This document shows positions 10,719 through 20,970 of a stretch of 64,000 bases of DNA, piece after piece. The notes below the pieces were generated by a model. That model did not search any database, was not told the DNA's origin, and worked only from the letters and a program-made list of their open reading frames with translations. Both the position numbers and the translations under genes were made by a program. The stretch's first letter is position 1, and every line of letters starts with the position of its first letter. Source of the DNA: Leisingera sp. ANG-M7 (GTDB lineage: Bacteria; Pseudomonadota; Alphaproteobacteria; Rhodobacterales; Rhodobacteraceae); assembly GCF_000813965.1 (NCBI RefSeq), contig NZ_JWLI01000001.1, positions 434,001-498,000 of the forward strand. Direction: 5' to 3'.

Positions 10719-12269
10719 TTAGTGCGAAGCAATCTGGGTCGCGGCGGGCGCAGTGTCCGCAGCAGCCAGAGACTGGTTGAAGTTTGCAATCAGCGCCTCG
10801 GTCGAAGGGCTGATGATGTCGGTGACCAGCGACGGGTAAACGCCCAGAAGCAGGGTCATGACGACCAGCGGCGCAAAGACGAAACGCTCACGCGCGGTCA
10901 TGTCGCGGATGCCCATCAGGCTGCCCTTGATCAGGTCGCCGAACACTACGCGGCGGTACAGCCACAGCGCGTAACCCGCCGAGAAGATCACGCCGGTTGC
11001 CGCCACCGCGGTTACCCAGGTGTTCTTCTGGAAGGTGCCCATCAGGGTCAGGAATTCACCGACAAAGCCCGAAGTGCCCGGCAGGCCGACGTTGCCCATG
11101 GTGAAGAACATGAACACCAGCGCATAAGCCGGCATCCGGATAACCAGACCGCCATAAGCGTCAATGTCGCGGGTATGCATCCGGTCATAGATCACACCCA
11201 CGCAAAGGAAGAGAGCGGCGGAGATGAAGCCGTGCGACAGCATCTGGAAGATGGCGCCGTCAATACCCTGCTGGTTGGCGGCAAAGATGCCCATGGTGAC
11301 AAAGCCCATGTGCGCAACCGAGGAGTAGGCAATCAGCTTCTTCATGTCTTCCTGCACCATCGCCACCAGCGAGGTGTAGACCACCGCAATCGCGGACATC
11401 CACAGGACCACATCGGTCATCACGTCCGCGCCCACCGGGAACATCGGCAAGCTGAAGCGCAGGAAACCGTAGCCGCCCATTTTCAGCAGGATCGCCGCCA
11501 GCACCACTGAGCCCGCGGTCGGCGCCTGCACGTGCGCGTCCGGCAGCCAGGTGTGCACCGGCCACATCGGCATCTTCACCGCGAAGGAGGCGAAGAAGGC
11601 CAGGAACATCAGTGTCTGCGCGCCGCCCAGAACATGGATGCCCAAGACGTCGAACGACGCCGCCGAGAAGCTGTGGGTCAGAAGGGTTTCAATATCGGTG
11701 GTGCCGGCATCCACATACATGAAGACCATCGCCACCAGCATCAGCACCGAGCCGAAGAAGGTGTAGAGGAAGAATTTGAAGGACGCGTAGATCCGCTCCT
11801 TGCCGCCCCAGATGCCGATGATCAGGAACATCGGAATGAGGCCTGCCTCGAAGAACAAGTAAAACAGAACCAGGTCCAGCGCCATGAAGACACCCAGCAT
11901 CAGGGTCTCCAGCAGCAGGAAGGCGATCATGTATTCCTTCACCCGATCAGTGACCGACCAGCTGGCCAGGATGGTCAGCGGCATGATGAAGGTGGTCAGC
12001 ATCACGAACAGAACCGAGATGCCGTCAACGCCCATCTTGTACTTGAGCCCGAAGATCCAGGCCCGGTCCTCGACGAACTGGAAGCCGGTGTTGGCCGGAT
12101 CGAACTGCGAATAAATCCCCAGGCTCACCAGGAAGGTGATCGTGGTGGCAAAGAGCGCAACAAACTTGGCGTTGCGCTGCGCCGCCTTATCCTCGCCGCG
12201 CAGGAACAGGGCCAGGATGGCCGCCGCGAGCGCCGGGATGAAGGTGACAATAGAAAGGAGATTGTCCAT
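10719..12269 (-). CDS. nuoM: NADH-quinone oxidoreductase subunit M
   Basis: Middle antiporter-like proton-pumping subunit of complex I. The 516-residue protein has the usual 14 or so helices. Glu141 ([10 protein letters not shown]) and Lys232 ([17 protein letters not shown]) match the essential Glu144/Lys234 pair described for E. coli NuoM. The stretch [13 protein letters not shown] is the discontinuous helix. Its ATG overlaps the nuoL stop by one base (TGATG), which favours coupled translation and equal stoichiometry. The C-terminus is a short Ala-rich tail. Confidence 0.96.
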
Positions 12270-14401
12270 CAGTGCGCTCCTCCGCCGATCGACATCCAGG
12301 TGACCAGGGCTGCAATGCCCAGCACCATCCAGAAGGCATAAGTGAAGATGTAGCCGGACTGTGCGCGTCCAGCGAGACGGGTGAAGAAGGGCACAACGCC
12401 CATGGCCAGACCGTTCAGGAAGCCGTCGATGGTATTGCCATCGCCGCGTTTCCAGAAGAAGCGGCCGAGCGCCACGGCTGGCTTGACGAAGATCACGTTG
12501 TAGATCTCGTCAAAGTACCACTTGTTCAAGAGGAACAGGTACAGCGGACGCTGCTGCTTGGCCAGGCGCGCGGGCAGCGACGGGTTCCAGATGTAGAACC
12601 ACAGCGCCAGCACCAGGCCGCCGATCATGGCAGCGAAGGGGGACAGCTTCACCCATTTCGGTGCCGCATGGGCATCCTCCAGGATGTGGTTGTCCGGCGC
12701 AATGTAAAGTGCACCCTCGCCCGGCTTGCCGGCAAACACATAGTGGTGCTCGCCGCCGTGTGGCGCGTCTTCGCCGTGGGCGGCCTCTTCACCGTGCGCA
12801 GCGTCATCGCCATGCGTGGCCTCTTCGCCGTGACCGGCTTCTTCGCCATGCGCAGCAGCAGACGCTTCCGCCACCGGGATGCCATAGAATTTGCCGACCT
12901 GATCAGCGTGGCCGAAGAAACTGCTGTACCACAGCATGCCCGAGAAGATCGCTCCCAGGGCTAGCACGCCCAGCGGCACCAGCATGGTCCAGGGGCTTTC
13001 ATGGGCGTGGTCGTGGGTGTGCTTGTCGCCGCGCGCCTCACCGTAGAAGGTCATGAAGATCAGGCGCCAGGAGTAGAACGAGGTCATGAAGGCTGCGATT
13101 ACCAGCGCCCAGAAGCCGAACATCGAGCCGCCCGCATAAGCGCTTTCGATGATGGCGTCCTTGGACACAAAGCCCGCAAAGCCAACCCAGCCGCTCAGCG
13201 GAATGCCGACACCTGTGATGGCCAGCGTGCCGATCATCATCGCCCAGAAGGTATAGGGGATCTTCTTGCGCAGCGCGCCGTAGTTCCGCATGTCCTGCTC
13301 GTGGTGCATTGCGTGGATCACCGACCCGGCGCCAAGGAACAGCATCGCCTTGAAGAAGGCGTGGGTGAACAGGTGGAACATCGCCGCGGAATACATGCCG
13401 ACACCAGCCGCAACGAACATGTAGCCCAGCTGCGAGCAGGTCGAATAGGCGATCACGCGCTTGATGTCGTTCTGCACAAGGCCGACGGTGGCCGCGAAGA
13501 AGGCGGTTGCCGCGCCAAGGGCAGTGATGAAGGCCGCGGCCTCAGGCGCGAACTCGATCAGCGGCGACATGCGGCAGACCAGGAACACGCCTGCGGTCAC
13601 CATGGTCGCGGCGTGGATCAGCGCCGACACTGGGGTCGGGCCTTCCATCGCGTCCGGCAGCCAGGTGTGCAGGATCAGCTGCGCCGATTTGCCCATCGCA
13701 CCGACAAACAGCAGGAAGGCCAGCAGGTTCGCCGCATTCCACTCGGTCCACAGGAAGGAGACCTGGGTCTCCGCCAACGTGGGGGCCGCCGTAAAGATGT
13801 CGGACAGGTTGATGCTGTCGGTCAGGAAGAACAGGCCGAAGATCCCCAGCGCAAAGCCGAAGTCGCCGACGCGGTTGACGATAAACGCTTTCATCGCCGC
13901 CGCATTGGCCGAAGGCTTGCGGTAGTAGAAGCCGATCAGCAAGTAGGAAGCGACACCAACGCCTTCCCAGCCGAAGAACATTTGCACCAGGTTGTCGGAG
14001 GTCACCAGCATCAGCATCGCGAAGGTGAAGAACGACAGGTACGCAAAGAAGCGCGGTTTGTAGCTCTCGCCCTCTTTCCACTGCGGATCATGGTCCATGT
14101 AGCCGAAGGAGTAGAGGTGCACGAGCGACGAGACCGTGGTGATCACGATCAGCATGATCGCGGTCAGCCGGTCCAGGCGGATCGCCCAATCGGTCGACAG
14201 GGTGCCACTTTCGATCCAGCGCAGGATCTGGATGGTCTCGGTCTGCCCGTCAAAGGTCAGGAAGGTGATCCAGCTGAGGAGCGCCGCCAGGAACAGCAGC
14301 GCTGTGGCGGTCACGGTGGCGGCCTTCTCGCCGATCATCTTGTGGCCGAAACCGCAGATAATCGCGCCAACCAGCGGGGCAAAGAGGAGGATGGTTTCCA
14401 T
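12269..14401 (-). CDS. nuoL: NADH-quinone oxidoreductase subunit L with His-rich repeat loop
   Basis: Distal proton-pumping subunit of complex I with the long lateral helix at its C-terminus. The 710-residue protein keeps Glu146 ([12 protein letters not shown]) and Lys238 ([32 protein letters not shown] region). It is longer than E. coli NuoL (about 610). The extra length includes a loop at about residues 511-580 carrying six tandem His-Gly-acidic hexapeptides (518-553). A second His cluster, HTHDHAH (461-467), lies one loop earlier. Both are outside the helices. Start ATG is 6 bases after the nuoK stop. The repeat may bind metal or be a neutral expanded linker; see findings. Confidence 0.95.
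12743..12850 (-). repeat. 18-bp tandem repeat encoding HG(E/D)(E/D)Ax hexapeptides in nuoL
   Basis: Six in-frame units of 18 bases encode, in order, [30 protein letters not shown] and the degenerate HGGEHH. The repeat is preserved at both DNA and protein level, which suggests recent slippage expansion or selection for the pattern. Confidence 0.85.
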
Positions 14402-14717: not shown

Positions 14718-15320
14718 TCACAGCCCCTGCCCCGGTTTCACGTCCTTGAGCTCCATCGCGGCGGCCGGGTCGCGCATCATCTGCGCGACCACGTCCTGGC
14801 GCTTGACGTCGGTGCGGTGGCGCAGGGTCAGCACGATTGCGCCGATCATCGCCACCAGCAGGATCAGGCCCGCCAGCTGGAACAGAAGGAAATATTGATC
14901 ATAGATGATGAGGCCGAGCGCCTCGGTGTTGTGGCGGTCCGCAGGCACCGGATTGGCGAGCAGCTCAGGCGCCTTGTGGGCGGTTTCCCAGACGCCGAAG
15001 GCCATCACGAACTGCATCAGGATCACCAGGCCGATCAGCAGCGCCAGTGGCATGTAGCGCGCCATCTCTGCCTTCAGCGCGGCAAAATCCACATCCAGCA
15101 TCATCACCACAAACAGGAACAGCACCGCGACCGCGCCCACGTAGACGATGACCAGCAGCATGGCGACGAATTCCGCGCCCAGCAGCACAAACAGCCCGGC
15201 CGAGGAAAGGAAGGCCAGGATCAGCCACAGCACCGAATGGACCGGTTGGCGGCTGATCACGGTGAACAGCCCGCCGGTGATGGCGCTGATGGCGAAGAGG
15301 TAGAAGGCAAAAACGCTCAT
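14718..15320 (-). CDS. nuoJ: NADH-quinone oxidoreductase subunit J
   Basis: Membrane subunit of complex I (ND6 homologue) with five predicted helices. The third contains the conserved glycine/tyrosine-rich stretch [20 protein letters not shown] with the pi-bulge that moves during turnover. Length of 200 residues is normal. Its ATG overlaps the stop of the upstream CMD-like gene (ATGA), so this non-complex-I gene is translationally tied to nuoJ. Confidence 0.96.
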
Positions 15321-15736
15321 GTCTCATCGTCCCTTTTGTCGTCCATGACCGATTGCGCCAGATCCAGCGCCCGGTTCATGGCCGGAATGCCGGCAAACAC
15401 CGACATTTGTCCGATCGTTTCCACGATCTCTTGTTTCTTGGCGCCGGCCGCGAGGGCGTGGCGCACGGTCTGGCGCACAGCACTGTCAGCTTGTGCGCCC
15501 TGCATTGTCAGCCCGGCCAGTGTCAGCAGCAGCCGGGTCTTGGCATCCAGCCCGTCCTTGTTGACGGTGTTGCCGAACATCATTTCCATGACCTCTTTGG
15601 GCATGGTGGGCCACAGCGCTTCGAACTCCTTGAACGCCTCGGAAGGCGAGAAGCTCTCCAGCGCCGGGTTGAACGCCTTGGCCATCTGCTGGGCCTGCGC
15701 CATCATGGCCTCAAAAGGGTTCTTAGGATCAGTCAT
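15317..15736 (-). CDS. Carboxymuconolactone decarboxylase-like protein inserted between nuoI and nuoJ
   Basis: A 139-residue protein with a CMD-like helical domain in its second half ([20 protein letters not shown], then [21 protein letters not shown]). Residues 1-60 form a charged, helical N-terminus ([19 protein letters not shown]). The catalytic CxxC of AhpD-type alkylhydroperoxidases is absent and there is no cysteine in the domain, so peroxidase activity is unlikely. No signal peptide or membrane span is present. It overlaps nuoI upstream and nuoJ downstream by 4 bases each, so it is embedded in the complex I translational chain. A role in complex I assembly or stability is inference from context only. 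Confidence 0.75.
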
Positions 15737-16227
15737 CGGTACGGCGCGTCGATTTCCAGGTTGCGGGCGATCTCGGCTTCCCAGCGCTCCCCGTTCGAAA
15801 GCAGCTTCTCCTTGTCGTAGAACAGCTCCTCGCGGGTCTCGGTGGCGAACTCGAAGTTCGGGCCTTCGACAATCGCATCCACCGGGCAGGCTTCCTGGCA
15901 GAAACCGCAGTAGATACATTTGGTCATGTCGATGTCATAACGCGTGGTGCGGCGGCTGCCGTCCTCGCGCGGTTCCGCGTCGATGGTGATCGCCTGCGCC
16001 GGACAGACCGCCTCGCAGAGCTTGCAGGCAATGCAGCGTTCCTCGCCGTTGGGGTAGCGGCGCAGCGCGTGCTCACCGCGGAAGCGGGGCGACAGCGGGC
16101 CCTTCTCGTGCGGGTAGTTCAGGGTGGCCTTGGGGGCGAAGAAATACTTCAGCCCCAGTTTGAAGCCGACCCAGAAATCCTGCAGCAGGAAGTATTTGGC
16201 GGCGCGGGTGTAGTCGATGTTCGCCAT
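15733..16227 (-). CDS. nuoI: NADH-quinone oxidoreductase subunit I (two 4Fe-4S clusters)
   Basis: Peripheral-arm subunit carrying clusters N6a and N6b that pass electrons towards N2. The 164-residue protein has two ferredoxin motifs, [12 protein letters not shown] (Cys65, 68, 71, 75) and [12 protein letters not shown] (Cys104, 107, 110, 114). An N-terminal amphipathic helix ([10 protein letters not shown] region) anchors it at the membrane arm. It starts 3 bases after the nuoH stop and overlaps the next gene by 4 bases. Confidence 0.97.
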
Positions 16228-17274: not shown

Positions 17275-17661
17275 TCACACCGTGGGTATTCCGTTTGCCG
17301 CGCAATCCGCAACCGCGACATCAGCGTCGATGGTGCGCAGCCCGCGCGGCAGAGAGGGCGAAATCAGGTAAACCGCATCCGCGGAAGATTTGCCCCCAGC
17401 CTGTGTCAAAGTTGTGCGCACATGGCGCGCAAATCCGTAACCCCGGATCAGCGCGTATTGCGCGGCGGCGCATTCCGCATAGTTCTCAATGTCTTCCGGC
17501 GCGGCGGCACCGCGCATGGAGACGTGAAATTGCACCAGATCGCCCTCCAGCAGGCTGGTTTCCACCCCTTCGTAAGCCGGGACGGGCCGCTCGCCTCCGC
17601 TGCCAGGCGCCATTGCGCAGGCGGCCAGCAGAAAGGGCGTTATGAGGGCGAGGCGGATCAT
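17275..17661 (-). CDS. Hypothetical lipoprotein between nuoG and nuoH
   Basis: A 128-residue protein whose N-terminus [15 protein letters not shown] is a signal peptide ending in a lipobox (LAAC, Cys15). It should be lipidated and held on the periplasmic face of a membrane. The mature part is soluble and contains three more cysteines (in [15 protein letters not shown] and the lipobox); the two internal ones could form a disulfide. No known domain is recognised. Its ATG overlaps the nuoG stop by 4 bases and nuoH starts 6 bases later, so it is made from the complex I mRNA. A periplasmic assembly or supernumerary role is possible but unproven. Confidence 0.7.
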
Positions 17662-19685: not shown

Positions 19686-20090
19686 CTATTTCGCCCTCAG
19701 TAACACGCCGATCGCGCTGTTTTTCTCAATCTCTGCGCGGCCATAGGCGCAGAATGTTTCGGGTTCGCCGTAGTCAACGCCGTTCTGCGCCAGGAGCTGT
19801 TCTCCCTTGGCGCGCATCCGGGCCTTTTCGGCATCAGATTCGATGTAGCTGCGGATTTCCGAGTCCGAGTACCCCAGCGCGTTTGCGCGCGCTTTGAGCC
19901 GGCGCAACTCGCCCAGCCCTTTCAGGTAACGCGGGGAAATATCGTCGCAGTAATCCGAGACTTCCTTGGCCACGGCAACGGCAAACAGGGGGTCTTCGAT
20001 TTCCTGCACATCGCGAAGTGACGGTTTCGCCAGCGCTGCGGCAGGCAGGGCAACAACCGTGGACAGAACAGCGGCAATCAGGGCACGCAT
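19686..20090 (-). CDS. Periplasmic DUF5333-type protein upstream of nuoG
   Basis: A 134-residue protein with a clear signal peptide (MRALIAAVLSTVVALPAAALA, cleavage before KPSL). The mature part is helical, with two cysteines (VSDYCDDIS and ETFCAYG) likely forming a disulfide in the periplasm. Repeated charged segments such as GLGELRRLKARANALGYSDSEI are present. It matches in size and position the Rhodobacteraceae family DUF5333 as I recall it; function is unknown. The frame is open upstream, but the ATG at the signal peptide is the sensible start. It ends 3 bases before nuoG, so it is co-translated with it. Confidence 0.72.
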   Translation of the reverse strand: MRALIAAVLSTVVALPAAALAKPSLRDVQEIEDPLFAVAVAKEVSDYCDDISPRYLKGLGELRRLKARANALGYSDSEIRSYIESDAEKARMRAKGEQLLAQNGVDYGEPETFCAYGRAEIEKNSAIGVLLRAK

Positions 20091-20191
20091 GGCATGGGTC
20101 TCCTTCAGTTTCGAAGCCCCCATGCGCAGGCGCGCGGTGCTGCTATGCAATAGCAGCCGGACCGTAAGGCCCTGATATGCCGGAAATCCGC

Positions 20192-20548
20192 TCACGGGGT
20201 GCAGGTCCCCTGAAACACAGCGCGGCCATCGGTGATGGTCAGCGGGGTCTCCTCGTCACGCGGATCGTTGGCCCAGTCAATCTTTGAGGACCCGTAAGTG
20301 GTCACGCAGTAGGTGGTGCCGCCATGGGCCGCCGCTTCCCGCGCGCCTTTGACCGAACGCTCAACGCCCTTGATGTCGATCTGGAACACCGCGGGGTTTG
20401 TCTTCTTGTCGATTGGCTTGGCCTTCGCCTTGAACGCCACGCCGTCATACAGCTCGCGGTTCTTGTTGGTCGTAGAGGTGCCGCAGGCCGAAACCAGCGC
20501 CAGAGCCGCCAGGCAGGCCGCAGGCACGGCCATCCGGTATGTTTTCAT
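20192..20548 (-). CDS. Hypothetical lipoprotein in the nuo operon
   Basis: A 118-residue predicted lipoprotein: signal peptide MKTYRMAVPAACLAALALVS followed by the lipobox Cys22. The mature protein is small and basic-acidic mixed, with VFQIDIKGVERSVKGAREAAAHGG and TYCVTTYGSSKIDW, and two cysteines that could pair. An ATG one codon upstream is equally possible. It starts a few bases after the MAPEG gene, and a 101-base gap separates its end from the DUF5333 gene. I recognise no family; similar proteins sit at this place in related genomes as far as I recall. Confidence 0.68.
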   Translation of the reverse strand: MKTYRMAVPAACLAALALVSACGTSTTNKNRELYDGVAFKAKAKPIDKKTNPAVFQIDIKGVERSVKGAREAAAHGGTTYCVTTYGSSKIDWANDPRDEETPLTITDGRAVFQGTCTP

Positions 20549-20553
20549 CATGC

Positions 20554-20970
20554 TCAAAATACTGCCGCCAATGCCAGGATTGCCAGACCCGCCATACAGG
20601 CCCAGCCGAGAACGTAGAAAACAGAGCGTGGGCCGCTGTGCGGTTTGCCGATGCCCTGCAGGTGAATAAAAATCATGAACACACGGGACACCACCGCCAC
20701 AGACGCCAGCAGGTTCACCCAGAACGGCGCCGCGCCAGCCAGGATTGCAACCAGCGTTACGGTCAGGAAGGCCGGCAGCGTCTCGCAGCCGTTCAAATAG
20801 GCCCGGTTCAGCCGGTAGGCCTTGTCCGCATAATCCTGCTGCGGCGTGGCGCCCGGAGCGAGGCCCGCCTTCTGCTTGGCCAGCGCCGAAAACGGCGACA
20901 GCGCCAGGGTGATCAGGGTAAAGATCACCAGCGCGGCCAAAGCGTGGGAGTATGCAGCAAAGGCTTCCAT
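20554..20970 (-). CDS. MAPEG family membrane protein in the nuo operon
   Basis: A 138-residue protein with four predicted transmembrane helices and the MAPEG-like pattern in the second helix region (YRLNRAYLNGCETLPAFLTV) resembling the ERxxxNxxE glutathione/lipid-binding motif. MAPEG proteins include membrane glutathione transferases and eicosanoid enzymes; bacterial members mostly lack a known role. It sits 3 bases after nuoF and is followed closely by a lipoprotein gene. Being a membrane protein made from the complex I mRNA, it might associate with the membrane arm or handle quinone/lipid peroxides; this is inference. Confidence 0.78.
   Translation of the reverse strand: MEAFAAYSHALAALVIFTLITLALSPFSALAKQKAGLAPGATPQQDYADKAYRLNRAYLNGCETLPAFLTVTLVAILAGAAPFWVNLLASVAVVSRVFMIFIHLQGIGKPHSGPRSVFYVLGWACMAGLAILALAAVF

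Follow-up and report, generated by a model that had tools for sequence, protein, structure and literature searches.

Why does NuoL, the distal pump subunit of respiratory complex I, carry a run of histidine- and acid-rich hexapeptides in Leisingera sp. ANG-M7, and what might such a run do there? We addressed this question in a window of 64,000 nucleotides (the whole stretch of DNA that was analysed, positions 434,001 to 498,000 of contig NZ_JWLI01000001.1), in which the following features lie.

12269..14401, minus strand: nuoL, 710 residues (ND5 / Nqo12 homologue), from the open reading frame and its translation, Pfam and alignment with 8qby_L
12743..12850, minus strand: six tandem hexapeptides, NuoL residues 518-553, from translation, Tandem Repeats Finder and shuffles
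12659..12913, minus strand: the entire TMH14-15 loop, NuoL residues 497-581, with helix limits from an AlphaFold2 model
12734..12874, minus strand: putative repeat tip, NuoL residues 510-556, from the secondary structure of the model only
13001..13021, minus strand: HTHDHAH, NuoL residues 461-467, in the TMH13-14 loop, from translation and helix count
15317..15739, minus strand: carboxymuconolactone decarboxylase family protein (Pfam)
17275..17661, minus strand: short open reading frame without a match in the Pfam search
19686..20195, minus strand: DUF5333 protein (Pfam)
20554..20970, minus strand: MAPEG protein (Pfam)

The 710-residue open reading frame is the NuoL/ND5 subunit of respiratory complex I, because three Pfam domains each exceed their cut-off (Proton_antipo_M, Proton_antipo_N and NADH5_C; PF00361, PF00662 and PF06455) and the top sequence and fold matches are P. 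denitrificans ND5. Residues 1-707 align with chain 8qby_L of that organism, and Foldseek ranks 1-4 are all chains with the sequence of 8qby_L, at 66% identity over the Foldseek alignment. The Pfam search of the window also finds the minus-strand nuo operon interleaved with other open reading frames, the last four features above.

The original prediction of a six-unit His-Gly-acidic hexapeptide is borne out: residues 518-553 map exactly to 12743-12850, and the units have the form His-Gly-acid-acid-Ala-x, five of them regular and the sixth (HGGEHH) degenerate. Histidines fall 6 residues apart within the hexads, then 4 apart, with one HH. In the DNA, Tandem Repeats Finder detects 18- and 36-bp arrays that overlap, at 12754-12853, and three such hexads in tandem never arose when the loop was shuffled 20,000 times. 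Against the rest of the genome the repeat was compared with 400 gene-like open reading frames, drawn from the window and twenty chosen 20-kb stretches on three ANG-M7 contigs with a rough purpose-written caller, some of whose calls look spurious. Its 8 histidines in 36 residues are the maximum in that sample, where the commonest per-frame maximum is 2, and the value is tied by one other open reading frame (L267, 2857-3577, minus strand), which has repeated His-Thr-His and ITDPGHTH motifs. The same sample holds 20 segments that are acidic, rich in Ala and Gly and poor in Lys and Arg, and the 19 besides the NuoL repeat have 0-1 histidine each.

The repeat lies in extra residues between TMH14 and TMH15, helices that are separated by about 6 residues in most other Alphaproteobacteria measured. 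The whole loop (497-581) contains 17 acidic residues, 11 His and 2 Lys or Arg. In an AlphaFold2 model built from 38 sequences, short predicted strands at 510-513 and 553-556 flank the repeat, which would thus form the tip of the loop. The pLDDT is below 50 over residues 515-550 and about 33 in the core, although this alone proves little, because residues 649-693, drawn mostly helical, are also mostly below 50. The argument for disorder is therefore carried not by pLDDT, but by the published structure of the P. denitrificans complex, in which the ND5 loop between TMH14 and TMH15 carries a flexible insertion on the periplasmic side, 44 residues of which are disordered, according to the part of that paper available (PMC11522691). 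By its extra residues between these two helices, the ANG-M7 repeat loop matches this insertion type. P. denitrificans ND5 (Nqo12, PDB 8qby/8qc1), the nearest relative with a solved structure, is the same subunit with the same loop, again by the available part of PMC11522691, but no hexad repeat is visible there in the alignment.

Homology to 8qby and helix alternation both suggest that the ANG-M7 loop is periplasmic. HTHDHAH had been placed one loop before the repeat, and the helix count agrees, assigning the two to the TMH13-14 and TMH14-15 loops, respectively. By the same alternation the HTHDHAH loop would be cytoplasmic. A joint histidine surface of the two clusters is ruled out, since they sit one loop apart on opposite membrane faces. 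HTHDHAH is, moreover, part of a motif found in nearly all NuoLs measured: the adjoining HESP-type motif, H[ED][SAT]P, is present in 82/84 family members and 37/39 others. The remainder of the original prediction is plausible, in that the distal pump subunit could well carry a soluble surface of His and acids.

How widely is the insertion shared? We took the family to be Rhodobacteraceae, judging from the named relatives, and searched one genome per genus; of 90 genomes searched, 86 matched and 84 could be measured, leaving out one NuoL split across two contigs (G156) and one at a contig end (G162). Inserts of 33-152 residues (median 61) occur in 72/84, and the loop is 4-17 residues long in the other 12. 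Outside the family, where 39 of 90 matched Alphaproteobacteria were measured, loops are 3-8 residues long in 36 and 22-50 in 3. Two of the loci outside the family, L113 and L133, have TMH14-15 inserts of 50 and 32 residues with His and acids, possibly by independent gain or by transfer. The loci of a wider search of the phylum (L314 and L315 missing) were measured roughly and kept out of the loop-length counts; among them, some loops from outside the Alphaproteobacteria are up to 20 residues long and have 0-1 His. A quickly built tree of 175 rows requires 10 changes between short and long loops, 5 of them forced by strongly supported branches, and is too weak for dating the gain or loss of the insert.

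All 72 inserts in the family sample are net acidic, and pooled they consist of 8.5% His, 20.5% Asp+Glu, 35.5% Ala+Gly and 3.5% Lys+Arg. His makes up at least 6% of the insert in 57/72, at most 3% in 5/72 and less than about twice background in 8/72. In a set of named relatives, the best 80 of 589 confirmed stretches and so biased to near relatives (the best match being Leisingera sp. SS27, 99%), the corresponding figures are 62/80 at 6% or above and 7/80 at 3% or below. The exceptions take several forms. The insert of L178 is rich in Ala, Glu, Pro and Thr and has no His, and the 152-residue insert of L200 is strongly acidic, with comparatively few histidines (6). In L055, L061, L064, L080, L174, L186 and L197 the hypervariable loop is replaced by a conserved, His-poor one (core AVAERSPKASELHYVM or close), whose named carriers are Roseobacter, Marivita, Roseovarius and Roseivivax; the loop of L081 resembles it. 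The tree, which includes 5 of these rows, is compatible with one origin of this variant as well as with several. Thus neither the insert nor its histidine is required for complex I generally, since 12/84 genomes are short-looped and some relatives are His-poor. Cytochrome c1, considered for comparison with the acidic periplasmic inserts, was dropped as a control, since only L242 has a long Ala/Pro/Thr/Glu extension among the 29 of 30 loci parsed (L257 left out).

Histidine is the most enriched residue of the pooled family inserts, at 4.1-fold its frequency in the sampled ANG-M7 genome (8.5% vs 2.1%), whereas Arg falls to 0.14 of background and Gln, Asn, Ser and Lys are also depleted. Base composition by codon position predicts 170 histidines, against 384 observed; for glutamine, its codon neighbour, 117 are expected and 94 observed. 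The spacing of these histidines is also non-random. The 383 His of the family sample form no HxH at all, where shuffles give 33, and form HxxH 10 times, where shuffles give 30; distances of 6, 7 and 8 residues come up more often than in shuffles. In the named-relative set (best 80 of 589) HxH occurs 2 times vs 46 and HxxH 10 vs 39, with spacings of 4-7 in excess, so that 6 and 7 are overrepresented in both sets, although the sets may overlap in genera and the two tests are not independent. In the family sample HH is not depleted (45 vs 37 in shuffles). Tandem repeats alone are insufficient to account for the spacing, as only 7/72 inserts are strongly periodic (z >3). The closely spaced histidines of metal-binding loops, HxH and HxxH, are thus nearly absent from the TMH14-15 inserts, which favours a buffer for protons or weakly held cations over a tight chelator.

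The exact hexad is a feature of the Leisingera-like genus, in about 1-6 copies. NuoL was found in 20/20 congeners searched, 16 of which have two to six units in register; of the others, one is scrambled but His-rich (L006), one has two imperfect units (L014) and two have about one (L020, L027). Thus the repeat itself is variable among close relatives, and what persists is the composition of His and acids. Among the 16 regular congeners, length differences amount to whole units within each C-terminal type. The codons of the units are position-specific: Ala at position 5 is GCC/GCT in 49/64 units and Ala at position 6 is GCG/GCA in 34/45, and codon-context bias does not explain this, because the same choices account for only 52% (before Ala) and 56% (before His) in the sampled genome. 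Such position-specific codons look like tandem duplication. At the same time, units within one gene differ at synonymous sites to saturation (pS 0.72) and little at nonsynonymous ones (pN 0.16), the latter lowered by a filter that kept units in register with H, Q, R or L first and G or S second; L006, L014, L020 and L027 were left out of this codon analysis. His is present in 66/71 filtered units, with both CAC and CAT common. The original suggestion of a slippage-prone linker therefore survives as to the tandem duplication recorded in the codons, but the units are not recent slippage copies, given their saturated synonymous sites.

Orthologous inserts of equal length, compared without the unit filter (9 pairs from 5 groups of equal length), have a dN/dS of 0.151; the remainder of NuoL, measured in 7 of these 9 pairs, gives 0.051. 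The repeat region is therefore about three times freer than the rest of the protein and well below neutrality; it is under selection on protein sequence. The low ratio could stem from selection for disorder and acidity instead of His.

A second kind of insert occurs in the neighbouring TMH13-14 loop of some NuoLs, where a His/Asp-rich, HxH-dense stretch lies just upstream in sequence of the HESP-type motif. Its carriers are L114, L131, L136, L221, L223, L286, L296, L297, L299 and L303 among other Alphaproteobacteria, and L193, L196 and L199 within the family. The last three have both TMH13-14 and TMH14-15 inserts, which refutes the idea that long periplasmic and cytoplasmic inserts are mutually exclusive. 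Like the ANG-M7 repeat, the TMH13-14 inserts are low-complexity sequences of His and acids at the NuoL tip; unlike the TMH14-15 inserts, they belong to the opposite, predicted cytoplasmic face, are 28.5% His and are dense in close pairs, with HxH 41 vs 29 and HxxH 46 vs 21 in shuffles. The sample is small, with 13 distinct inserts, 10 from other alphaproteobacterial families and 3 from within the family. In this small sample, neighbouring NuoL loops on opposite faces follow opposite rules of histidine spacing, which was unexpected. Histidine enrichment at the tip is thus not specific to the exit side, because the cytoplasmic-loop inserts of other NuoLs are also His-rich. A broader idea, which we regard as speculative and rather unlikely, is that the two spacings are opposite codes, with dispersed periplasmic His acting as an exit proton antenna and dense cytoplasmic HxH as a metal or proton trap, repeatedly gained and lost so as to tune proton release to habitat.

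Overall, the reading that we favour, tentatively and without calling it probable, is that the insertion forms a soft polyanion with titratable groups at the outward side of the pump tip, passing protons and loosely holding divalent cations. On this view the insertion in the periplasmic TMH14-15 loop, common in the family, would end in the repeat as its disordered tip. That tip may grow and shrink by whole 18-bp units, while selection at the protein level would keep it hydrophilic, acidic and poor in Lys and Arg, with many single histidines set well apart. The carboxylates and these histidines might then accept and relay protons released at the pump tip, and the loop may hold divalent cations loosely, as opposed to in a tight metal site. 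The sequences themselves show where the repeat lies in NuoL, what it is made of, that it is constrained and how its histidines are spaced. Titratable groups are present in the TMH14-15 loop; that they face the periplasm of ANG-M7, and that pumped protons leave through NuoL, is suggested by homology and by a published model. Histidine would be mostly uncharged at the pH of seawater, which counts against a buffer. A published mechanism makes NuoL the sole periplasmic proton exit, a view that is under dispute (PMC10212512, in the part available). For P. denitrificans, a possible route through ND5 to the periplasm is described, with Lys413, Asp414, His404 and Glu418 as possible exit residues (PMC11522691, in the part available).

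Almost as likely as a titratable buffer is a passive hydrophilic spacer, an entropic bristle selected for solubility, acidity and disorder, in which histidine is tolerated and the remainder of the pattern would go back to codon and repeat history. Insert sequence and length vary between genera, the insert is missing from the short-looped genomes, the region's dN/dS is three times the value for the remaining protein and the L178 insert manages without any His, all of which a spacer would allow. What a spacer leaves unexplained is the non-random spacing of histidine, its place as the most enriched residue alongside depletion of Gln, Asn, Ser, Lys and Arg, and the near absence of His from the other acidic low-complexity segments of the ANG-M7 sample. 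Recent replication slippage without function we find hardly credible: the whole-unit length differences among regular-hexad congeners and codons more position-specific than genome context are what it would leave behind, but the synonymous sites between units are saturated with the amino acids kept, and the orthologous dN/dS of 0.15 speaks against it as well.

Histidines and acids are a usual make-up of metal-binding loops, and zinc inhibits complex I. A loop that binds periplasmic Zn, Cu or Ni as a store, a shield or an inhibitory sensor for complex I would draw on the first of these facts, and it has a parallel in the zinc-binding, disordered, His-rich loops of the periplasmic protein PA4063, which resemble the TMH14-15 insert in these respects in the available part of PMC8561739. 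The likeness ends with the evidence for metal: zinc binding was tested for PA4063, whereas the NuoL inserts are known from sequence and have few of the close spacings of tight sites (HxH 0 vs 33 and HxxH 10 vs 30 in shuffles), and searches of the open-access literature yielded no metal experiment on the NuoL TMH14-15 loop. We consider metal binding unlikely. We give less credence again to docking, in which an acidic periplasmic bristle would attract a basic partner such as cytochrome c or steady a respiratory supercomplex. The net acidity of every family insert would suit such a role, and solved supercomplexes contain the ND5 sequence of 8qby, to judge from the available parts of entries 9g9y and 9g83, for which no paper was found in the open-access literature; docking does not call for histidine, however, and the 44 disordered residues belong to isolated P. 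denitrificans complex I in the available part of PMC11522691.

The TMH14-15 insertion itself is already known, and it is the His/acid composition that is newly described here. No description of this composition was found in searches of the open-access literature on NuoL and complex I, including that on Roseobacter, and searches of open-access work on zinc, histidine and complex I or on proton antennae yielded nothing on the TMH14-15 loop. The available part of PMC11522691 held no discussion of the composition of the P. denitrificans loop, and nothing on the insert was found in the available parts of an E. coli complex I paper (PMC8357420) or of the published genetics of P. denitrificans complex I (PMC8115037). 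A NuoL phylogeny needed several inserts to align NuoL with its mitochondrial homologues (PMC8879329, in the part available), and the available parts of that paper and of PMC10715153 yielded nothing on the His/acid composition.

How complex I releases its protons, and at which site, is a matter of dispute, and one published model allows exit through NuoL only. A titratable loop that can be tuned, that is present in the tractable and structure-solved P. denitrificans and that is naturally missing in some relatives would allow a mutational test of surface buffering. If buffering at the tip does not matter, the case would instead illustrate how a disordered loop can keep its composition while its sequence is not conserved.
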